In this document: in pieces, positions 1 to 7,258 of the stretch
How the letters are laid out: every line of letters begins with the position of its first letter
How positions within the stretch are numbered: position 1 is the first letter of the stretch
Source of the DNA: Thermoplasmata archaeon
GTDB lineage: Archaea > Thermoplasmatota > Thermoplasmata > Thermoplasmatales > Thermoplasmataceae
Assembly (NCBI GenBank): GCA_021845325.1
Contig: JAKBRR010000082.1
Location: 1-7,258, forward strand
Length of the DNA stretch: 7,258 bases
Direction of reading: 5' to 3'
Program-made: the position numbers and the translations under genes
The notes under the pieces: generated by a model
The model's database searches: none
Told to the model about the DNA's origin: nothing
The model's input: the letters and a program-made list of their open reading frames with translations, nothing else

Positions 1-96
1 TATGGGGGGGGATTTACGATACTCATTAATTTAAAAATATGCAAGCATTTCATCATTTTCTTAGTAAATCAGACCATTTTCACCTTTTCAGAAAGT

Positions 97-108
97 AATA
101 TATATAAT
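97..108 (+). promoter_or_regulatory. Archaeal TATA box of the zinc-ribbon membrane gene
   Basis: An alternating TATATATAA run is preceded by a purine-rich stretch (GAAAGTA) that could serve as the BRE. Its centre lies about 23-29 bases before the two candidate ATG codons at 126 and 132. That is the archaeal spacing from box A to the transcription start, so the mRNA is probably leaderless. No Shine-Dalgarno motif precedes either ATG, which fits. Confidence 0.55.
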
Positions 109-125
109 TTGCAGTATGCATTTAT

Positions 126-347
126 ATGACAATGAAACATTGTCCTAGCTGCAAAAGAAATGTAGACACCGAGCACAGTTGGAATACTGTTGTTCTTGTG
201 GTTTTACTCATATTCTTTCTAATACCAGGTTTAATTTATTTGGCCTGGAAATGGAAGAGACGTTGCCCAATTTGCCATACACCAGAAAAGATGCTTACAG
301 CACCTAAGTTTGATGATCAGGCTGTATCGCCCGGTGCTTTTCCATAA
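126..347 (+). CDS. LITAF-like zinc-ribbon membrane protein
   Basis: A 73-residue protein with two CxxC knuckles (C6-P-S-C9 and C47-P-I-C50) on either side of one strongly hydrophobic segment, roughly residues 21-40. The segment is followed by a basic W-K-W-K-R-R patch. Split zinc-ribbon halves separated by a membrane-inserted helix are the hallmark of LITAF/DUF-type small membrane zinc proteins. In that fold the two Cys pairs meet on one face of the membrane around a single Zn ion. The tail after C50 is short and polar. ATG 126 and ATG 132 (Met3) are equally good starts; both fit a leaderless transcript from the TATA box at 97-108. The gene stands alone with a T-rich stretch after its stop. 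Membrane location and zinc binding are inferred from the motifs, and the cellular role is unknown. Confidence 0.7.
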   Translation: MTMKHCPSCKRNVDTEHSWNTVVLVVLLIFFLIPGLIYLAWKWKRRCPICHTPEKMLTAPKFDDQAVSPGAFP

Positions 348-367
348 GCCGGAATGACTTTCCCGCT

Positions 368-396
368 TTCCCTTATTTTATTTATTTTTCAATCTT
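368..396 (+). terminator. T-rich terminator after the zinc-ribbon gene
   Basis: About 20 bases past the stop, the + strand turns into runs of T broken by single A or C bases (TTATTTTATTTATTTTTC). There is no strong hairpin. Archaeal RNA polymerase stops at such U-rich tracts without needing one. The next 225 bases (397-622) are AT-rich spacer in which I see no convincing gene. Confidence 0.45.
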
Positions 397-622
397 ACTG
401 TTTACTACCATATGGATTCCTGCAAAAATCTCAACTGAAGCAATCTTTCTAATAAATTTATTGTAGCGGATAAAATTTTCACCATTGTAGAAAAATGCCG
501 ATATTTATTCGTGTCAATTGAGGGACCTGGCTGGCAAAGTCAAAATATTCAATTTTTCAATTCCAATTTATCTTTTCGTAAATTCGTTGATTGTATTATA
601 AATGGTATTAACAACAATAAAT

Positions 623-991
623 TCAGGATGAAAGAAAAAACAAATGGGCTAGTAGAATATCGAACATATTAAAGAGATACAGAAATCCAGAAATGAAGAA
701 TGTGATCAGGAAGATTGCTAGGGCCAAATAGGTTTTAGAAAATATGAGAATAGGATGTGTCCGGAAAAGAATAGGCATGACAACAAGTGAAGAGCAAAGG
801 AGTATGTTTACACCAAGCATAGGATAGTAGTGTGCTCCTTGAGGTAAGTGAAAAGTCCAGTAAATCCCGAAATTAACTGTGGTTAAAACAGTAACTCCAA
901 TTAACAAGATGGATAAGGCCTGACCTGCAAGAGAAACAGCGGATAACCTTAAGTTGGGAGGATTCAGTACATTCACCTCTCTTTTATTCAT
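623..991 (-). CDS. Small polytopic membrane protein, unknown function
   Basis: A 122-residue protein that I do not recognise. After a short polar N-terminus with basic residues (K3, R4, R15) there are three long hydrophobic stretches at about residues 18-40, 57-76 and 81-107. A further hydrophobic C-terminal piece ends in F-F-L-S-S. The loop between helices 1 and 2 holds H-L-P-Q-G-A-H-Y-Y. No catalytic or ligand motif is evident. An in-frame TAA lies four codons upstream of the ATG at 991, so the ATG is the first possible start. An AT-rich box on the - strand is correctly spaced for a leaderless or near-leaderless message. The gene is divergent from the restriction-modification unit, separated by 276 bp. 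It is real as judged by its hydrophobic periodicity and promoter; its role is unknown. Confidence 0.55.
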   Translation of the reverse strand: MNKREVNVLNPPNLRLSAVSLAGQALSILLIGVTVLTTVNFGIYWTFHLPQGAHYYPMLGVNILLCSSLVVMPILFRTHPILIFSKTYLALAIFLITFFISGFLYLFNMFDILLAHLFFLSS

Positions 992-1002
992 GCAGCATTC
1001 TT

Positions 1003-1020
1003 ACTTAAGAATTATTAATG
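1003..1020 (-). promoter_or_regulatory. Putative promoter of the small membrane protein gene
   Basis: On the - strand the sequence CATTAATAATTCTTAAG provides a box-A-like element centred about 22 bases before the ATG at 991, which suits a leaderless start. A strong purine Shine-Dalgarno-like string (AAAGGAGGAAG on the - strand, about 1025-1035) lies too far upstream to serve this ATG and has no obvious start codon of its own. Confidence 0.35.
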
Positions 1021-1098
1021 TGCTTCCTCCTTTGTAGTTCTGTCATTCAGAGAATAACGAAAACTGTGTGAATCAAGGCAGTTAGATAAGTTTATCCC

Positions 1099-1112
1099 AA
1101 CTGTAAACAGTT
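1099..1112. repeat. Inverted repeat AACTGT-AA-ACAGTT
   Basis: A perfect 6-bp dyad with a 2-bp centre lies in the 276-bp spacer between the divergent membrane-protein and winged-helix genes. It resembles the second dyad at 1190-1208 (AACTAT/ATAGTT). The pair could be operator sites for the winged-helix protein encoded next door, but this is unproven. Confidence 0.35.
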
Positions 1113-1189
1113 TGTAGATTACAGTATGGGAGACTTTTGTAGGTATTCTTGAAAGTAAAATGTGTTTGAATTAATCCTCTTTAACTCTA

Positions 1190-1208
1190 AACTATTATAT
1201 CTATAGTT
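1190..1208. repeat. Inverted repeat AACTAT-N7-ATAGTT upstream of the R-M operon
   Basis: Perfect 6-bp arms surround an AT-rich 7-bp centre, 60-78 bp upstream of the winged-helix start codon and about 35 bp upstream of its box A. It has the size and position of an archaeal activator or repressor site. The AACTA motif recurs at about 1227-1231. Confidence 0.35.
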
Positions 1209-1240
1209 ACTGATGAATAATCTTAAACTACTAACATAAA

Positions 1241-1250
1241 GCTTTAAAGC
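1241..1250 (+). promoter_or_regulatory. Box A (CTTTAAAG palindrome) of the R-M operon
   Basis: The palindrome GCTTTAAAGC contains a TTTAAA box A centred about 23 bases before ATG 1268, right for a leaderless message. A second AT-rich box (ATATATTATAT, 1250-1261) lies too close to that ATG to serve it unless translation starts further downstream. No Shine-Dalgarno precedes 1268, which supports the leaderless reading. Confidence 0.4.
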
Positions 1251-1267
1251 ATATATTATATCTGATT

Positions 1268-1576
1268 ATGATGGAGACATTACTCAAGGTATTAAGCAGG
1301 AGACACGTACCAGAAATTCTTGAAGCCCTATTGACCAGCAAGGAAAAAGGCCTGACCTACTCTGAAATTCAATACGATGTAGTCAAGAGCTCTGGAACTA
1401 GTCTCCTCCTGAAATCGTTGATGAATTGTAACCTTGTGACAACAAAAGAAAACAGATATCTGATAACAAAAACCGGAGTTGAGGCAATAGATCTGACAAG
1501 ATCCTTGCTGACAATGAACAGAGACGGAATTTATTTTGAGGAACATGATTACCTAAACAAAGAAAGGAGGCCATAG
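1268..1576 (+). CDS. Winged-helix transcriptional regulator, putative R-M controller
   Basis: A 102-residue protein with a winged-helix pattern. Helix 1 is at residues 2-23 (LLKVLSRRHVPEILEALL), a helix-turn-helix follows at about 29-56 (GLTYSEIQYDVVKSSGTSLLLKSLMNCNLV), then the wing (TTKENRYLITKTG) at 58-70 and a last helix at 71-84. The layout matches archaeal HxlR/ArsR/PadR-like one-domain regulators. ATG 1268 and ATG 1271 are adjacent candidate starts. The gene ends 3 bp before the methyltransferase start, and its own 3' end supplies that gene's ribosome binding site, so the two are co-transcribed and probably coupled. Bacterial R-M loci often begin with a controller (C) protein that times endonuclease expression. 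By position this protein could play that part, although its fold is not the classic Xre-type C protein. DNA binding is inferred from the fold. Confidence 0.7.
   Translation: MMETLLKVLSRRHVPEILEALLTSKEKGLTYSEIQYDVVKSSGTSLLLKSLMNCNLVTTKENRYLITKTGVEAIDLTRSLLTMNRDGIYFEEHDYLNKERRP
1564..1570 (+). promoter_or_regulatory. Shine-Dalgarno AAGGAGG setting the GTG start
   Basis: A full AAGGAGG lies inside the last codons of the winged-helix gene, nine bases before GTG 1580. This spacing is what selects GTG 1580 as the methyltransferase start. The first in-frame ATG comes only at codon 41. Confidence 0.75.
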
Positions 1577-1579
1577 AAA

Positions 1580-2782
1580 GTGAGATCTGGGCAATCTTCA
1601 GATAAAATCTTTCTGCACTACAATCAGAAGAAGAATCGTGAAGAAGTATTGGAAAAAACCGCCATTTTTTCTTTTGAGAAAACTTTTCAATCCTCACACA
1701 TGATAGGTGATGTAGATTTCCTTAACATATTGATGCATGGAGAAAACACGGATGCTATGAAATATCTGTTCACCAGGGACGATGTCAAGGGAAAGATTCG
1801 GCTAATTTACATTGATCCTCCATTTGCAACTGGCAGATTTTTTAACGGTGCAACATTAAAAAAATCCCCGCTCACCGCTCTTGATCACGCATATGATGAT
1901 AGATTGCAGGGACCCGAATTTGTGGAGTTTCTAAGGGAAAGACTCATCCTATTACACGAATTACTTGCAGAAGACGGTAGCATTTACGTTCACATCGACT
2001 GGAAAATGTCACATTATGTCAGAGTGGTAATGGACGAAATTTTTGGACCGGAAAATTTTATAAATGAAATTACACGGATTAAATGTAATCCCAAAGGAAT
2101 GCCGCGACAAGGATTTGGCAACTACAAAGATACAATATTATTCTACTCAAAGGGGCCCAACTTTATATGGAATGATAGCAGAGAAAAATTTACTGAGGGA
2201 GAGTTGAACAGACTCTTTGGCAAAGTTGATGAAACCGGGAGGAGGTATACCACCTTTCCCCTGCATGCCAATGGGGAGGTTGTCAATGGGGAAACCGGTC
2301 AACCATGGAGAGGGAGAATGCCGCCAAAAGGATCTCACTGGCAATATAAGCATGAAGATCTGGATAGGTTAGACGCTGAAGGTTTGATTGTATGGTCGAA
2401 AAGCGGGAATCCAAGACGGAAAGTGTATGCGGATGATGCAATACTGAGAGGGAAAAAAAGACAGGATATCTGGGACTTCAAGGATCCCCCTTATCCACTT
2501 TATCCAACCGAGAAAAATACTGATATGCTGAAAGTCATAATTGAAGCTTCAAGCAACAAAGGAGATATTGTGATGGACGCATTCTGTGGTTCTGGCTCAA
2601 CTCTTTTATCAGCAGAATCACTCGAAAGACACTGGATTGGGATCGATAGATCACCTCTTGCAATAAGGATCACAAAAGAAAAGTTATCTAAAATAAAAAA
2701 TCCTCACCCTTACGCAGTGTACGAGGGATCAGACTCCATCAGAATTTCTCAAGAAAATCCTGAAGCAGAAGAGAGCTCATAA
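1580..2782 (+). CDS. Beta-group DNA methyltransferase (adenine-N6 or cytosine-N4)
   Basis: A 400-residue S-adenosylmethionine-dependent DNA methyltransferase. The catalytic motif IV, DPPF (residues 79-82, in I-Y-I-D-P-P-F), comes first. Near the C-terminus follow Y-P-T-E-K-N (308-313, motif X-like), the AdoMet-binding motif I F-C-G-S-G-S-T (335-341) and motif II G-I-D-R-S (354-358). The order IV, X, I, II defines the beta group. A typical M-H-G-E-N segment (52-56) precedes DPPF. The central part, about 160-290, is probably the target-recognition region. The length fits a stand-alone type II enzyme and is well below the roughly 600 aa of type III Mod subunits. It presumably protects host sites from the endonuclease at 2739-3533. 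The GTG start is set by AAGGAGG at 1564-1570. Its last 14 codons overlap the end of the opposing endonuclease gene. All key motifs are intact; the recognition sequence cannot be read from the protein. Confidence 0.9.
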   Translation: MRSGQSSDKIFLHYNQKKNREEVLEKTAIFSFEKTFQSSHMIGDVDFLNILMHGENTDAMKYLFTRDDVKGKIRLIYIDPPFATGRFFNGATLKKSPLTALDHAYDDRLQGPEFVEFLRERLILLHELLAEDGSIYVHIDWKMSHYVRVVMDEIFGPENFINEITRIKCNPKGMPRQGFGNYKDTILFYSKGPNFIWNDSREKFTEGELNRLFGKVDETGRRYTTFPLHANGEVVNGETGQPWRGRMPPKGSHWQYKHEDLDRLDAEGLIVWSKSGNPRRKVYADDAILRGKKRQDIWDFKDPPYPLYPTEKNTDMLKVIIEASSNKGDIVMDAFCGSGSTLLSAESLERHWIGIDRSPLAIRITKEKLSKIKNPHPYAVYEGSDSIRISQENPEAEESS

Positions 2783-3530
2783 CATCGGCCTGAGCATTTC
2801 TCACTTCACGGGTTTGTTTCCTGTCTGGTCCGTTGATCCACAGTGGGCCATCTAAAATTGCAATTCTATGGGCTCTTCCAGAAAAACTACGTACTAAACT
2901 CATTGCTTCATCGAATTTGTCATCTTGGCCTCCTCCCATGTCTGTGAGGAATTTTGCTTCACCAACCAGGTATTTGTCACCTTTTCTAATCAACAAATCC
3001 GGGTTTCTTACCAAGCCACATCGAAGAGTTGAATTCGCAAATTGCATGTATTGACTTTCCGAACCTTTGTGTATGACGATTTCGGATGGATCCAAATGTC
3101 CATTCTGAAAGGCGTTTTCATCTACCTTTGGATATTCTAGACTCATCAGCCAAGTCCTGAATGCCTGTCCATATCTCTTGACGGCTCTCTTGGGTTTAGT
3201 GCCCATGGCAATTATCTCGTCAACTCTCAAATTCAATAGTATATTTCCTATTTTTTTGGCCACTTCAGGATTATGTTTTAAAAAGGTTTTGTCATCATAA
3301 CGGAAATAAGCTACATATGGGTGTTCCACCGGAAAAACTGGAAGCTCAAGGCATATCCTGAAAAGTTCAACAGGATCCTTCTTGGCAATGGCTCTGGAGA
3401 GTTCTCCCACTAACTCCGAATCCAATTCTCTGAACTCAGAAATATCAACTGGATATACATGATGGAGCTTATCTAGATAGTTCCCATTATTGGCGAGTTC
3501 AATGCTCTTCAGCGCCCATTGGTTGGTCAT
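2739..3530 (-). CDS. Putative type II restriction endonuclease (PD-(D/E)XK)
   Basis: About 263 residues from ATG 3530; a TTG one codon upstream (3533) is an alternative start. A PD-(D/E)XK nuclease core is visible: N-P-D-L-L-I (P177, D178) followed 13 residues later by G-E-A-K-F (E191-A-K193), then G-G-G-Q-D-D-K-F with a conserved-looking Gln. This is the Mg-dependent phosphodiester cleavage site of many restriction enzymes. The helical N-terminal half has several Arg/Lys-rich stretches (for example residues 112-125) that could contact DNA. The gene converges on the methyltransferase, and the coding ends overlap by 44 bp. Separate promoters for the nuclease and the protective methylase are common in R-M systems. 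It resembles small type II enzymes; I cannot assign the subfamily with confidence (Tsp45I-type was considered). Function rests on the catalytic motif plus the methylase partner. Confidence 0.75.
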   Translation of the reverse strand: MTNQWALKSIELANNGNYLDKLHHVYPVDISEFRELDSELVGELSRAIAKKDPVELFRICLELPVFPVEHPYVAYFRYDDKTFLKHNPEVAKKIGNILLNLRVDEIIAMGTKPKRAVKRYGQAFRTWLMSLEYPKVDENAFQNGHLDPSEIVIHKGSESQYMQFANSTLRCGLVRNPDLLIRKGDKYLVGEAKFLTDMGGGQDDKFDEAMSLVRSFSGRAHRIAILDGPLWINGPDRKQTREVRNAQADVMSSLLLQDFLEKF

Positions 3531-3564
3531 CAACCTCTTAGAAACATGGAAAGAATAAAGATTT

Positions 3565-3577
3565 CTATTTTTATACA
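3565..3577 (-). promoter_or_regulatory. TATA box of the endonuclease gene
   Basis: On the - strand, TGTATAAAAATAG is a good box A about 40 bases before ATG 3530. It predicts a leader of about 15 bases, with an AAGAGG Shine-Dalgarno-like sequence just ahead of the TTG/ATG pair. Confidence 0.5.
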
Positions 3578-3603
3578 GGCAAAAAATGTTAGTCAGAAAT
3601 TCT

Positions 3604-3620
3604 ATGTAGAGCCTCTACAT
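3604..3620. repeat. Perfect 17-bp palindrome ATGTAGAG-C-CTCTACAT
   Basis: Two perfect 8-bp arms flank a single central base. The repeat lies about 30 bp upstream of the endonuclease TATA box and about 117 bp from the left tRNA repeat. Its location suits an operator controlling the endonuclease gene. A hairpin is possible, but no T-tract follows on either strand, so it is not a convincing terminator. Confidence 0.5.
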
Positions 3621-3736
3621 TTACACTGCCTGTCTATTAAAAATTTTACAGTTTAATTAATCCTGTCGTACTTTACCAGTGTATCTATTGAACTTCATGA
3701 AAATTATTTGATAATATGTTAAACACAAAACAAAGC

Positions 3737-3785
3737 AGAAAGCCACTAGAGAGATCCGAACCCCCGACCTGCTGATTACAAATCA
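3737..3785 (-). repeat. Left att repeat: displaced 3' half of tRNA-Thr
   Basis: On the - strand this reads as the 3' half of the anticodon arm, the variable bases, the T-arm and the 3' acceptor strand of a tRNA-Thr(UGU), followed by TTTCT. The 25 bp at 3761-3785 are identical to 6939-6963. The five mismatches all fall in the T-arm and acceptor part (T-loop TTCGGAT here, ATCGAAA in the intact gene). No matching D-arm precedes it, so it cannot form a working tRNA. It marks the far end of the integrated element. Confidence 0.8.
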
Positions 3786-3980
3786 CACTTAGGTACGACT
3801 CTAGATAACGAAATGTGGCTGTGTGAAAATGATCACTTTCCTGTGATTCATCAGATCTAGTTATATGGGGGTCCTTCATAAGAACTCTGCCTGCTCGATT
3901 GGTTGCGGTTCGCCCTAAAGGAGCGGTTTCATCCAAATAGTTAAGAACAAATTCAATTTTAGATTTTAGTAGAAACATAA

Positions 3981-4850
3981 ATGATGATGACGTTCGATTT
4001 TCAGTGGGGTATGCATTCTAATATACCGGATATTTTGCAGGGAAAGACTCTAACATTGCCTCATGGAACTAAACTATATTATGAGAATGGGGGTTGGAGG
4101 GTTACTTCAAGAGTTACTTTTGATGAAGTAGAAGGGCCAGATCCTATAAAAACCTCTGTTCAGCTAGTCACTGAAGATATTTTCTGGTTTCAAGTCAATC
4201 TCAAGAATGACTTGGATGAACCTCCTTTTCTCGTTGTTAATCCAAATAGTCTTACTTACAAAAACATTGCAGATGGCAGAGAAATGATCATGTGGAGCTT
4301 TCCTATGCCTCTTTTCGGAAAGCCACTTCCACACGAAGTTTTCGCCGACAATGAAACCAGGAAGATTGTGAACAAATTTTCAAAATCCAGTCCTTTGAAA
4401 GAGGACACCTTAAAGATGGCTGAGCTTCCAATTTATTATCTATCAAAGGCACTTGAGGAGAACTTCTCTGACAGGAAAACATACAGGTTTCTTAATTTAA
4501 TAATATGTTTGGAATCAATAGTGGCAGGATCTTACTCTACAACAGAGAGGATCTGTAGACGGACTGCAATACTTGTTTCTTCTGATCTTCCTAAAAGTCA
4601 AGAAATTTTTGAAAATCTTAAGAAAATGTATTATCTTAGAAACAAAATATTCCACGGCGGTGTATTTCCAAATGTAGAAGACAAAGTTATTCTGGATCTT
4701 TTCAATCTTGTACGATTAGCTCTTAGAAACTATCTCATTTTGTTAGAGAAGTATTCTAACCCAGACAAGGTTAGATCAACCTTAGACAGGTTTCTTGACT
4801 CTTCAGTGATAGAAGATATTAGAAGTTCCATTAGAAGAGCAATAGAATAA
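3981..4850 (+). CDS. HEPN-domain protein (ApeA-like HEPN), putative defence RNase
   Basis: A 289-residue protein whose C-terminal half looks like an Apea-type HEPN domain. There are helices at about 166-184 (FLNLIICLESIVAG) and 186-201 (TTERICRRTAILVSSD), then Y-Y-L-R-N-K-I-F-H-G-G (217-227) containing the R-x4-H motif (R220, H225). HEPN proteins use this motif as a metal-independent RNase centre in many toxin and anti-phage systems. The N-terminal 150 residues are mostly beta-rich and unassigned; they may be a sensing domain. Three ATG codons in a row (3981, 3984, 3987) are all possible starts. There is no Shine-Dalgarno, and an AT-rich box lies at about 3957-3969. It is the first cargo gene inside the integrated element and close to a restriction-modification system, a defence-like context. 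RNase activity is inferred; some Apea-HEPN proteins may be non-catalytic. Confidence 0.7.
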   Translation: MMMTFDFQWGMHSNIPDILQGKTLTLPHGTKLYYENGGWRVTSRVTFDEVEGPDPIKTSVQLVTEDIFWFQVNLKNDLDEPPFLVVNPNSLTYKNIADGREMIMWSFPMPLFGKPLPHEVFADNETRKIVNKFSKSSPLKEDTLKMAELPIYYLSKALEENFSDRKTYRFLNLIICLESIVAGSYSTTERICRRTAILVSSDLPKSQEIFENLKKMYYLRNKIFHGGVFPNVEDKVILDLFNLVRLALRNYLILLEKYSNPDKVRSTLDRFLDSSVIEDIRSSIRRAIE

Positions 4851-4861
4851 TATTCGAATAT
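4850..4861. repeat. 12-bp palindrome at the HEPN gene stop
   Basis: ATATTCGAATAT begins on the last base of the TAA stop. It is a perfect palindrome, but short and AT-rich, so it could be chance. The following 200 bases (to 5070) are AT-rich and carry no gene I can support, apart from a box-A-like GATAATATAACTAA (5017-5030) ahead of the small two-CxxC gene. Confidence 0.25.
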
Positions 4862-5016
4862 CTCGGACTCACTATAATTCTGATACCAAAATTCCTATTT
4901 CTTTAATCTATTGAATAACCGTTGGAGAAATTATTAAATTCGAAAATAGCACTAAGTTGACTGTTATCAATTGCCTTATTATGGCTCATAATTAGGTTAC
5001 AATTGTTTATAGAACC

Positions 5017-5030
5017 GATAATATAACTAA
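5017..5030 (+). promoter_or_regulatory. Putative TATA box before the two-CxxC mini-gene
   Basis: GATAATATAACTAA is centred about 47 bases before ATG 5071. It predicts a start near 5047 and a leader of about 24 bases. No Shine-Dalgarno is seen before 5071. Confidence 0.3.
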
Positions 5031-5070
5031 TTAACGAAGAGTTGAGTAGTGGTTCATTCTGAATACCTTT

Positions 5071-5285
5071 ATGGGTATAGAAATCTGTGAATATTGTGGA
5101 AGTGAGAAAAAAAAGACTTTGGTTTCAACCTTCTTGGAGATTTGAATATGTACGGAAAACAGAAGTGGTTGACGTTAGAATATGCACTAGCTAAAGAAAG
5201 TACGCTTGAGAAAGAATTTGAGAAGTATGTCTTCACTCATATTGAGAAAGTGTGTTATCAATGTGAGTTTAGAGATAGTGAGTGA
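5071..5285 (+). CDS. Small two-CxxC protein split by a -1 frameshift at A-AAA-AAG
   Basis: Two short reading frames overlap in a telling way. From ATG 5071 the frame gives a 24-aa peptide with C6-E-Y-C9 and stops at 5145. A second frame, offset by -1, is open from 5106 to the TGA at 5285 and ends with C-Y-Q-C-E-F. Between them is GAG-AAA-AAA-AAG, which contains A-AAA-AAG in the correct phase, the classic slippery heptamer for -1 ribosomal frameshifting. Slippage there would give a 71-aa protein with a CxxC knuckle near each end, a plausible zinc-binding layout. Without slippage the downstream part could start at ATG 5148 (45 aa). A simple indel in the A8 run (mutation or sequencing error) is equally possible. 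Both frames together are more convincing than either alone. The function is unknown. Confidence 0.45.
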
Positions 5286-5297
5286 AAAGAATAGACG

Positions 5298-5331
5298 CAA
5301 GTTCATTTCTCATCTGAACTTGGGCTTTTTT
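5298..5331 (+). terminator. Hairpin plus T-tract terminator
   Basis: Perfect 8-bp arms CAAGTTCA (5298-5305) and TGAACTTG (5315-5322) enclose a 9-base loop. GGC and six T follow. This is a textbook intrinsic terminator starting 13 bases after the two-CxxC gene. It supports that gene as a real transcription unit and separates it from the integrase remnant. Confidence 0.75.
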
Positions 5332-5387
5332 AAACTTATATCTTTGAAACTTCTCCTCTTTTACTTTAAATAGATACAAGTCCCTGA

Positions 5388-5621
5388 TTTTATTTTCATT
5401 TTCTTTCCTTCAACAATTTTCACCAAATAAGCAAATCTAGATTGAATTCCAAGTACCTTAGAAAGTGGTCCTATAACCTCCTGATTTACAACAATGTGCC
5501 TGAAGGAGTTGCAGATTTTATTGAAGGTCGTTCTGCTTCATCTATAGGCAACATGCACTACTTGAGCAAATTAAGGCAAGAGGATTACTTATATGAGCAA
5601 GCAGTTAAAAAATACTATTAA
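5388..5621 (+). pseudogene. C-terminal fragment of an archaeal tyrosine integrase
   Basis: The open frame has no ATG near its beginning and encodes about 77 residues. The last 57 match the end of the archaeal SSV/phage integrase family: S-K-Y-L-R-K-W with the K-x-x-R box (K22, R25), the N-V-P-E-G-V-A-D-F-I-E-G-R segment, then M-H-Y (H57) and a Tyr-containing tail D-Y-L-Y (Y67/Y69) where the nucleophile belongs. The family is normally about 300 aa or more. The N-terminal domain and the first catalytic Arg box are missing, and an in-frame TGA lies at 5385. It is therefore a remnant, or at most a C-terminal-only product from an alternative start such as TTG 5442. This is the recombinase expected for insertion into the tRNA-Thr gene. 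It sits about 1.6 kb from the left att repeat, so it is not the simple split made by SSV-type integration. Confidence 0.75.
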
Positions 5622-5660
5622 ATATGGATTCTAGAGTATTTAGTTAAGTGCAATTTATTT

Positions 5661-5746
5661 ATTCGCGATAATCGAATTATTTAGCTCCGTCAGACCTCTA
5701 ATCTAGATTTTGTTATAATTCGCGTTTTAGCGTTCAAATTAGGTCT
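5661..5746. repeat. Cluster of short inverted repeats upstream of the 247-aa gene
   Basis: Several dyads overlap here: ATTCG-N7-CGAAT (5661-5677), CGAATTAT (5673-5680) against ATAATTCG (5715-5722), and AGACCT (5692-5697) against AGGTCT (5741-5746). They could be operator sites or a remnant attachment or accessory region beside the integrase. Each repeat is short, so chance is not excluded. Confidence 0.3.
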
Positions 5747-5797
5747 AATTATGGCCGAAAAAGACAATAAGACAAAAAGCACCAATTAGAGCATGAA

Positions 5798-5809
5798 CTT
5801 TATTAATCT
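5798..5809 (+). promoter_or_regulatory. Putative TATA box of the 247-aa gene
   Basis: CTTTATTAATC lies about 45 bases before ATG 5848. A start near 5828 would give a leader of about 20 bases that carries the Shine-Dalgarno at 5836-5842, in contrast to the leaderless genes elsewhere in the window. Confidence 0.3.
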
Positions 5810-5835
5810 CGACTATATGAAGAGCAAAAGACATG

Positions 5836-5842
5836 GAGGTGT
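5836..5842 (+). promoter_or_regulatory. Shine-Dalgarno GGAGGTG deciding the start at 5848
   Basis: GGAGGTG ends five bases before ATG 5848. The in-frame ATG at 5833 overlaps this motif and has no ribosome site of its own. The authentic start is therefore 5848, five codons shorter than the longest open frame. Confidence 0.75.
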
Positions 5843-5847
5843 CATTA

Positions 5848-6591
5848 ATGAAAATAGGGAAATATGTTGTACCTAATAGAGGAGTGAGAATGAGGGATTC
5901 ACTACAAAATGCCTTAAAACTATACGATGAGTATAAGACTAACACTATTACAAAACTGAACAGCGATGATGGCATAGCCAAGACATTCGGCTACAGTGGA
6001 GCGAACAATGGTTCATATACTAAGGCAATTGCAGCATTGAAAGACTATGGATTCTTGGAAAAAGCCGCTGCAAGCGAGTTCAAAGTATCTAATCTTGCTA
6101 TCGATGCCCAGTACGGCACAAAGGAAGAGAAGAAAGTTGCATTAATCACTGCCTTGAACAATATACCACTCTGGAAACAACTTTACGAGAATTTCAAAGA
6201 TAGAGTTCCTGATGACCCGATTTGGCTAAAAATTAGAAACATCACTAGCGTAAAGTCAGACGAAGCACAGAAAGTTGAATCATTCGTTCGAGAAGCTTAC
6301 ATGGAGGATATAACCTTCGTTAGAGAGATTGTTGGAGATATAGCATTTGGACAGACTTATACCTCACAGGAGAAGTCAGGAGAGGAGGAAACAGAAAAAG
6401 TTGAAGAGAAGAAGGAAACCGTAATTACTAAGAAAACCGTTGATCCGACAATGATAACAGTGACAATTGGCTCTTTCCAGACCAATCTGCCAATAAGTGA
6501 TATTGGATTTGAGGCTGCGAAGAGTTTCCTAGATTCTCTTAAGCCTCATTTTTTACAAGAAAAACAGAACAGCGAACAGATAACCATCTAA
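5848..6591 (+). CDS. Winged-helix-like protein of unknown function, element cargo
   Basis: A 247-residue protein I cannot name. The N-terminal part (about 15-85) looks like a winged helix: G-I-A-K-T-F-G-Y-S, then N-N-G-S-Y-T-K-A-I-A-A-L-K-D-Y-G-F-L-E as recognition helix and turn, then a short wing (F-K-V-S-N-L-A-I). A helical region follows (92-165), with N-N-I-P-L-W-K-Q-L-Y-E-N-F and a V-E-S-F-V-R-E-A-Y segment. Residues 175-196 form a very Glu/Lys-rich linker, probably disordered or coiled coil. The last 45 residues (I-T-V-T-I-G-S-F...F-L-D-S-L-K) look like a small compact beta-alpha domain. The layout recalls DUF5343-like proteins, which is only a resemblance. No enzyme motif is visible. 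As the largest intact gene in the right half of the element it may be a DNA-binding regulator or a defence component. Confidence 0.65.
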   Translation: MKIGKYVVPNRGVRMRDSLQNALKLYDEYKTNTITKLNSDDGIAKTFGYSGANNGSYTKAIAALKDYGFLEKAAASEFKVSNLAIDAQYGTKEEKKVALITALNNIPLWKQLYENFKDRVPDDPIWLKIRNITSVKSDEAQKVESFVREAYMEDITFVREIVGDIAFGQTYTSQEKSGEEETEKVEEKKETVITKKTVDPTMITVTIGSFQTNLPISDIGFEAAKSFLDSLKPHFLQEKQNSEQITI

Positions 6592-6639
6592 GGCAACTAA
6601 AAAAAAGACCGGTTATGGGAAGAGAGGAGTTATCCAGGG

Positions 6640-6667
6640 TTTTTTTCGATTTCTCTTAATTTTTTTA
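6640..6667 (+). terminator. Double T-tract terminator after the 247-aa gene
   Basis: Two runs of seven T (6640-6646 and 6660-6666) occur about 50-75 bases past the stop. AAGAGA (6620-6625) can pair with TCTCTT (6652-6657) just before the second run. U-rich tracts like these terminate archaeal transcription. Confidence 0.6.
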
Positions 6668-6670
6668 CTC

Positions 6671-6729
6671 TCACACGTTGCGAATAATCAGTTAAATTCC
6701 CATCGAAATCCTGGCAATTTAACGTGTGA
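6671..6729. repeat. Nested inverted repeat with two alternative hairpins
   Basis: TCACACGTT (6671-6679) is a perfect complement of AACGTGTGA (6721-6729). GTTAAATT (6691-6698) is a perfect complement of AATTTAAC (6716-6723), leaving a 17-base loop. The two stems share AAC at 6721-6723, so they compete for those three bases; otherwise they nest into one 59-bp structure. It lies between the terminator and the right att repeat. Possible roles include a small structured RNA, a recombinase accessory site or an origin-like element. Nothing in the sequence decides between them. Confidence 0.55.
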
Positions 6730-6914
6730 AACAATTTTACAGTATAATTCTGTGAGATTTGGTACGGAAAAAATCATAGTGGTACATTTACGAAAAATAC
6801 TTGGAAATAAAACAAAAATGCATAATCAAGTCCGTGTGAACTTACAGGAAAGTAAAATCTTGAAACACTACAAAAATAACCGCATTGAATCTGTTAGAAA
6901 ACCACTATTATCAA

Positions 6915-6963
6915 AGAAAGCCACTGGAGGGTTTCGATCCCCCGACCTGCTGATTACAAATCA
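6915..6963 (-). repeat. Right att repeat, within intact tRNA-Thr
   Basis: This 49-bp copy matches the left repeat at 3737-3785. It covers the 3' half of the tRNA-Thr gene and five bases beyond it. The 25-bp core 6939-6963 covers the anticodon-loop end of the gene and is the probable strand-exchange zone, since it is the part left without mismatches. Under the usual model of integration, the 3' half now present in the intact tRNA was brought by the element. Confidence 0.8.
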
Positions 6964-6991
6964 GCTGCTCTGCCAGCTGAGCTACAGTGGC
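6919..6991 (-). tRNA. tRNA-Thr (anticodon UGU)
   Basis: A full cloverleaf is visible on the - strand. It has a perfect 7-bp acceptor stem (GCCACTG/CAGTGGC), a D-arm GCTC/GAGC, a perfect 5-bp anticodon stem GCTGA/TCAGC with loop TTTGTAA (anticodon TGT, reading ACA), a 5-base variable region, and a T-stem GGGGG/CCCTC with one G-U pair. G1-C72 and C2-G71 and the UGU anticodon fit threonine. The discriminator is U and no CCA is encoded. The T-loop is AUCGAAA instead of the usual UUCGAAU-like loop, a pattern known mainly from initiator tRNAs. The gene has no intron. It serves as the integration site of the adjoining element. Confidence 0.95.
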
Positions 6992-7010
6992 GATGTTGAG
7001 AGATATGTTA

Positions 7011-7023
7011 CTTAATCATAAAA
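7011..7023 (-). promoter_or_regulatory. TATA box of tRNA-Thr
   Basis: On the - strand TTTTATGATTAAG is centred about 26 bases before the first base of the mature tRNA, the normal archaeal distance for box A. Because the promoter lies on the chromosomal side, the tRNA stays expressed after insertion of the element. Confidence 0.65.
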
Positions 7024-7104
7024 CTTTCACTGTCTTTCCAGCCAATTTGCAGAAATTATTTTTTTTCCATGTTTCTCTGGCAAAGGATAAGATATCAAAA
7101 AACT

Positions 7105-7135
7105 GATGACATTCATGTTACATGATGTTGTCATC
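7105..7135. repeat. 31-bp imperfect palindrome upstream of the last gene
   Basis: Outer arms GATGACA (7105-7111) and TGTCATC (7129-7135) are perfect complements. Inside them CATG-TTA-CATG (7114-7124) forms a second, slightly off-centre dyad. The repeat lies about 40 bp before the probable box A of the gene at 7202 and about 90 bp behind the tRNA promoter, a fitting place for an operator. Confidence 0.45.
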
Positions 7136-7168
7136 TGTACATTTTATTATTTAAACTTCACTGCACAA

Positions 7169-7179
7169 GTTTATTATCA
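7169..7179 (+). promoter_or_regulatory. Putative TATA box of the right-edge gene
   Basis: AGTTTATTATC is centred about 28 bases before ATG 7202, the distance expected for a leaderless transcript. No Shine-Dalgarno precedes that ATG. Confidence 0.35.
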
Positions 7180-7201
7180 TTATCATCAATAAGCCTTCTA
7201 C

Positions 7202-7258
7202 ATGGAATCTCTCGAAATTATCAGGAGCATGCCACCCTCTGCAAAACTGCTCCTGCGA
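7202..7258 (+). CDS. Start of an unidentified gene, cut by the window edge
   Basis: An ATG opens a frame that remains open for 19 codons to the end of the window. It begins M-E-S-L-E-I-I-R-S-M-P-P-S-A and continues with a Leu-rich amphipathic pattern. Composition is protein-like and GC rises compared with the spacer. A correctly spaced box A and an upstream dyad support it. A second ATG (codon 10) is an alternative start. The visible part is too short to identify the product. Confidence 0.4.
   Translation, partial: MESLEIIRSMPPSAKLLLR

Follow-up and report, generated by a model that had tools for sequence, protein, structure and literature searches.

The 7,258-nucleotide contig JAKBRR010000082.1 of a Thermoplasmata archaeon (assembly GCA_021845325.1; its full length is called the window below) carries a tRNA-Thr gene and, about 3.2 kb away, a displaced copy of that gene's 3' half. 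We consider it probable that the DNA between and including these two sites, positions 3737–6963, is a non-autonomous mobile gene cassette that belongs to a family with shared ends and would be mobilised in trans. As read from its bases, the unit shows a core at each end, an 8-bp site inverted between its two arms, two cargo genes and an integrase remnant, and the same end architecture is shown by relatives. With no working integrase of its own, the unit may depend for its movement on that of larger relatives, in the manner of the gene cassettes of bacterial integrons.

The two cores, 3737–3785 and 6915–6963, match at 44 of 49 bases with a spacing of 3178, whereas the runner-up ungapped match to the 49-mer on either strand of the window reaches 24/49. 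Both copies contain the same run of 25 bases, CCCCCGACCTGCTGATTACAAATCA. ARAGORN finds a single tRNA in the window, tRNA-Thr(TGT), on the minus strand at 6919–6991; the right core is therefore its 3' half plus 4 bases and, with one tRNA only, the left core is a 3' half to which no 5' half belongs. A sequence-only reading of this DNA had proposed the 44/49 repeats, their perfect 25-bp stretch and the division into an intact tRNA-Thr and a displaced half, and all three are borne out.

Displaced tRNA-Thr halves also lie ~1–6 kb from intact tRNA-Thr genes in related-genome loci, and conserved DNA adjoins both: a right arm beside the intact tRNA and a left arm beside the displaced half. Profiles built from 19 right and 10 left arms, the window excluded, were run over 668,228 bases. 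The right-arm profile gave 26 hits at E < 0.001 and the left-arm profile 12, training copies making up 18 and 10 of these, respectively; in a Markov-shuffled control of 668,228 bases the right arm returned nothing under E 1 and the left arm nothing better than E 0.14. The borders that the sequence-only reading had drawn coincide with these arms. At the right border the window, although outside the training set, has core plus right arm at E 1.8e-34; at the left border a weak left-arm match (3787–3847, 13.8 bits, E 0.035) stands at exactly the expected place, one base from the core. Within this left arm, CTTTCCTG occupies 3836–3843, 50 bases from the core, an offset common to 10 other displaced halves, and its exact reverse complement, CAGGAAAG, lies in the right arm at 6845–6852. 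More generally, 11 of 22 displaced halves, the window included, have a TTTCC[T/A]-like site, a pattern picked after the alignments were seen, at a distance of 48–52 bases from the core, and 13 of 26 tRNA-attached copies have an AGGAA site at a distance of 45–95 bases. The features of the window are listed in the table (G, C and L numbers are our handles for genomes, contigs and loci).

Table. Features of the window, in order of position
Feature	Position	Strand	Basis or remark
Chromosomal flank, 3' side of tRNA (73-aa ORF 126–347)	4–487		97% identical to G001:C62 (L007 8975–9458)
Second extra segment	488–3736		Pfam; not at this site in G001
122-aa ORF	623–991	-	in segment 488–3736
HTH-like ORF	1268–1576		in segment 488–3736
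N6/N4 DNA methylase	1580–2782		Pfam; in segment 488–3736
Tsp45I-like restriction endonuclease	2739–3533	-	Pfam; in segment 488–3736
Displaced tRNA-Thr 3' half (left core)	3737–3785	-	repeat comparison
Left arm	3786–3847		profile trained without window
Cargo, 289-aa protein with C-terminal HEPN-like domain	3981–4850	+	alignment with relatives
SSV-like integrase C-terminal remnant	5388–5621	+	ORF 5442–5621; frame open from 5388
Cargo, 247-aa protein (252 aa from start 5833), winged-helix-like N-terminus	5848–6591	+	structure model
Right arm	6742–6914		profile trained without window, E 1.8e-34
Intact tRNA-Thr(UGU)	6919–6991	-	ARAGORN; right core = 6915–6963
Chromosomal flank, 5' side of tRNA	6992–7258		6913–7258 95% identical to G001:C53

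Core and both arms bound units of 0.95–5.1 kb at tRNA-Thr(CGU) in eight related genomes; both arms reach E < 0.001 in G001, G008, G014, G015, G020, G022, G042 and G053, the arms there being mostly training copies. Other units carry one arm, and some stand in tandem. G006 holds both arm types within one array with an altered end at the tRNA, while a second left-arm type occurs in G017, G025 and G027, and no right-arm hit falls at the tRNA of G025. By eye, the displaced halves at L072, L076 and L194 share this second type (CAAACAT.TGCGT.TTTAGA...TTTCCTGAAAGG), and every one of these units has a PIN gene. When 151 genomes were searched with window 6600–7258, at least 18 tRNA loci, in at least 17 genomes, had a match covering 40 or more bases of the right arm, and 17 of 21 tRNA-Thr(CGU) genes examined have a right arm (L111 counted as a training copy) against four that do not. 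Because loci were chosen by their resemblance to the window, these counts are no census. Two other loci have unusual displaced halves. At L077 10901–10998 (G014) two halves lie 51 bases apart, as if an intervening cassette had been lost. The half at L006 9503–9548 has a right part resembling a CAT-anticodon arm, which would fit an origin of the cassette at a different tRNA or a crossover between T-arm and anticodon; a possible move from tRNA-Met was considered, but the one place checked is a tRNA-Arg.

Evidence on movement comes from comparing units with one another. G008 and G053 share a left flank, with its half, at 91% identity and are nearly identical over ~45 bases past the tRNA, yet their cassettes differ: that of G008 is 0.95 kb long and encodes a membrane protein, that of G053 is 5.1 kb long and encodes a type I restriction-modification system. 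A pair of AbrB-like and PIN genes stands beside CGU-type cores in G006, G022 and G037 (at a contig end in the last), inside UGU tRNA intervals in G004 and G027 and, as a sixth copy, near the G014 array; the AbrB and VapB assignments of cargo proteins are our own reading. The PIN proteins of G006 and G037 are 90% identical, compared with 77% for RpoB. When cassettes were set against rpoB at the DNA level in six comparisons, identity exceeded that of rpoB by at least 5 points in three (G006–G037, 86 vs 75%; G022–G037, 78 vs 72%; the PIN cassette of G017–G027, 82% over 1301 bp vs 75%) and narrowly in two (G017–G022, 79 vs 76%; G006–G022, 78 vs 77%), and fell below it in one. The window itself is tied by its flanks to G001, the metagenome-assembled genome 'Thermoplasmata archaeon isolate LSA5.bin55', which alone in the genome collection matched the tRNA pattern; the right arm of the window is 81% identical to the G001 arm and, over 81 bp, 95% identical to the G042 arm, although the RpoB proteins of G001 and G042 are 80% identical. 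A scan of 41 genomes for an empty site, based on the left flank of the G008 unit, found this flank in G008 and G053 only, both occupied.

A single decayed SSV-type integrated element is an unlikely but serious alternative. It would take an integrase-bearing plasmid or provirus that inserted at the tRNA and there shed the greater part of its genes, with relatives decaying likewise, hence the shared ends. Such a history agrees with the integrase remnant within the unit, with the SSV-type arrangement at tRNA-Thr(UGU) in G001 (apparently also in G004, by eye) and with the window cargo, for which no relative was found in another cassette. Deletion in place would not, however, explain why distant genomes have the same gene pair of 1–2 kb at two different tRNA genes, nor would it leave some cassettes closer to each other than rpoB; furthermore, reading of the frames at both ends of the window unit revealed no N-terminal part of the integrase.

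Much less probable still is a resident origin of the right arm, as a terminator or small RNA that naturally follows tRNA-Thr, with the arrays being duplications of tRNA 3' ends by homologous recombination. Arm copies also adjoin displaced halves within arrays, and a UGU tRNA of G002 with a related 5' flank has no arm, even though the arm is present at 17 of the 21 tRNA-Thr(CGU) genes, at six of them without a displaced half in the stretch examined, and the left flank of G001 joins arm and half directly. The arms of the window and G001 are 81% identical where the flanks are 95–97% identical, and yet over 81 bp the window arm shares 95% identity with G042. An RNA gene in the arm is not supported: neither strand has a conserved RNA structure, and Rfam returned only tRNA above threshold, a match to FuFi-1 (E 0.24) lying far below. 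Finally, one insertion spanning 488–6918 with the 3737 repeat as an internal leftover hardly deserves credence, for although both parts are missing from the G001 flank, where identity ends at 487, neither core nor arm was found at 488 and the left-arm match begins at the 3737 core.

Several observations weigh against a family of cassettes mobilised in trans. The left-arm score of the window is weak (E 0.035), the TTTCC site is absent from 11 of the 22 displaced halves, and the T-arm of the displaced half (GAGAGATCCGAAC) differs from that of related UGU tRNAs (GGGTTTCGATC). The six tRNA-Thr(CGU) genes with a right arm and no displaced half nearby count here as well, as does the VapBC cassette of G001 and G006, whose DNA identity is under that of rpoB (81 vs 82%). 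No circle, excision or empty site was seen, and no intact integrase was found on an element bearing both arms; the integrase of G037 is broken and split across two contigs. PF16795 has no match in G008, G014, G017, G020, G025 or G027, and the arrays there may therefore be relics. In the 151 genomes, which may be incomplete, no cassette was found to carry either cargo gene of the window; the G017 relative of the 289-aa protein has in-frame stops and lies ~350 kb from its tRNA-Thr(CGU), with no arm hit within 18 kb around it.

The origin of the cassettes is suggested by G037. On contig C19 of this genome a left arm (E 8e-10) is followed by a broken SSV-like integrase and then by a transposase-like open reading frame (ORF), and the G008 cassette resembles this locus, by eye, on into the integrase leader. 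With the left arm placed before the integrase, integration at this locus would leave the integrase gene whole. The window integrase remnant has its best DNA match among the loci compared on G037:C13 (78.5% over 107 bp), which reads integrase remnant, PIN pair, weak right-arm end (E 0.039). Judged by these sequences, the window remnant and the broken G037 integrase behind a left arm point to a putative SSV-like ancestor. An integrase-bearing element of this lineage may have lost its integrase and gained cargo, in the window cassette a HEPN-like and a winged-helix-like protein. The SSV-like tyrosine integrase of a related element would then bind arms and core and recombine the circular cassette with a tRNA-Thr gene; integration would rebuild the tRNA from the 3' half of the cassette and displace the old half outward, and repeated integration events would build the tandem arrays.

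The proposed family can be compared with several known systems. PF16795 integrases are described as a suicidal class, excision requiring a complete integrase from elsewhere (PMC8371274). The cassettes resemble SSV-type elements in their tRNA 3'-half cores, in PF16795 ancestry and in the need for an outside integrase to leave the chromosome; they differ in being ~1–5 kb long, with few cargo genes and with ends that lack int(N) and int(C) (PMC8371274). The window unit is bordered by direct repeats of a tRNA 3' half as SSV-type elements are, but instead of a PF16795 gene split into int(N) and int(C) at its ends it has a sole C-terminal remnant, internal, at 5388–5621. It has the traits of the tRNA-Thr family: core plus right arm, and a left arm, if weakly scored by the profile, whose TTTCC-like site stands at a distance of ~50 bases from the core. 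Integrons of archaea, equipped with IntI and attC, have been described (PMC9668308), and arrays of small cargo cassettes without a recombinase of their own recall integron cassettes and clusters of attC sites lacking integron-integrases (CALINs; PMC9668308, PMC11389934). In contrast to these, the sites here appear to be tRNA halves with arms rather than folded attC, the platform is a tRNA gene and the related integrase is PF16795 rather than IntI. The right arms have no conserved fold, and no search aimed at IntI or attC was made. Cis-mobilisable elements (CIMEs) are non-autonomous elements that have lost the recombinase, kept their ends and are moved in trans. Miniature inverted-repeat transposable elements (MITEs) offer a similar parallel in recombinase loss, retained ends and movement in trans, as reviewed for elements of this kind (PMC11389934); unlike MITEs and CIMEs, the cassettes have tyrosine-integrase sites in tRNA genes and bear cargo genes. 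Cryptic integrated elements of Thaumarchaeota are likewise small (from 2.6 kb) and inserted in tRNA genes, some with winged helix-turn-helix or restriction-modification genes, but they have an integrase by definition (PMC6563490), which here is missing or, as in the window unit, a remnant. Genomic islands of acidophilic archaea have also been treated (PMC12302457, PMC12350378). Among the open-access literature matches listed we recognised no description of such tRNA-Thr cassettes, subscription papers lying mostly outside that scope.

Between the window repeats lie a 289-aa ORF, the integrase remnant and a 252-aa ORF. The 289-aa protein has no Pfam model above cut-off; RNKxFHG is invariant across five aligned proteins. 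HEPN domains are all-helical and carry an R-x4-6-H motif. The 289-aa HEPN-like protein is perhaps a defence or toxin protein. The integrase fragment noted earlier is confirmed: 5442–5621 matches PF16795 positions 106–160 of 161 (E 1.2e-15) and phrog_5127 positions 294–347 of 355. The 252-aa protein, from the winged-helix-like part that we read in its model, could be a regulator or an initiator, which leaves the claim that the unit has no replication gene unproven. Sequence comparison of both cargo proteins with solved structures yielded nothing useful, and Foldseek gave no E < 0.001 for either. At 5063–5285 a CxxC piece is read in each of two neighbouring frames; the pieces, which seem to be out of frame with each other, may belong to a single small zinc-ribbon gene.

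Relatives of this cargo are rare. The 252-aa family has one distant relative in the 151 genomes, in G012 beside another integrase; the 289-aa family has matches in three (G017, G108 and G136), none shown to be cassette-borne. The suggestion that the same cargo would be found between tRNA-Thr repeats elsewhere was thus answered in the negative. A peptide-pattern search of genome and viral contigs confirmed no relative of either gene, and searches of viral contigs for the integrase remnant and the tRNA pattern found none.

To the left of the unit, the restriction-modification segment 488–3736 is, on comparison with G001, extra DNA too, absent from the G001 site. Its Tsp45I-like endonuclease has a relative in one of the 151 genomes, a weak match of 30% identity. 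The best core-like match near its left junction is 21/46, and a further unit left of 3737 was rejected, with neither core nor arm found at 488. Chromosomal flank had been expected just left of 3737, but in G001 the flank corresponds to window 4–487. Since 488–3736 is likewise missing there, the predicted empty site, with sequence left of 3737 joined to the tRNA 5' half, did not appear; the G001 tRNA-Thr site is occupied. After the equivalent of 4–487, G001 has a short right-arm remnant with a ~190 bp insert, a tRNA 3' half and then an integrase ORF of 261 aa that starts from a TTG at the core; its hits in the PDB are to chains that bear the name 'probable integrase' (3vcf, E 4.2e-10). We take 3vcf to be the SSV1 integrase. 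On G001:C53, an ORF read by hand as ribbon-helix-helix enters the half of the intact tRNA in the same frame as the C62 integrase past its half. If C53 and C62 carry one element, G001 would have the SSV arrangement, its integrase cut by integration. The ~190 bp insert (L007 9483–9669) has ends resembling inverted repeats with ATAAAAC on both sides, and is perhaps a MITE.

Across the family, ORFs were listed for 19 intervals (the window included) and three more, and Pfam was run on 10 of these proteins: three are PIN proteins, one a GNAT acetyltransferase, one a methyltransferase, two a type I restriction pair, and three have no clear family. Cassettes carry one to three genes, among them toxin-antitoxin, restriction-modification, acetyltransferase and methyltransferase genes. 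No intact integrase was seen among the ORFs of the intervals listed. PF16795 has 23 matches in 61 genomes, and those within intervals listed or read as cassettes are the G037 remnants only; G053, which was not in the 61-genome search, has an integrase pseudogene in the contig left of a tRNA-Thr(CGU) to which a right arm is attached. In G004 a 474-aa ORF (L198 2468–4561) stands between the AbrB-like and PIN genes; by its motifs it presumably resembles IscB.

We tentatively extend the cassette reading to a wider proposal, in which Thermoplasmata tRNA-Thr genes might serve as an integron-like platform, unrelated to IntI and attC, where armed cassettes without an integrase would be captured, stacked and swapped, between CGU and UGU genes and between lineages, by the SSV-like integrases of passing elements. 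Surveys that look for an integrase first overlook units without an integrase gene, and a family recognisable by its ends would expose many small defence, toxin-antitoxin and enzyme cassettes. Such a family would make single-gene gain at archaeal tRNA loci testable, and its units offer natural substrates with which to determine the arms that an SSV-like integrase requires.

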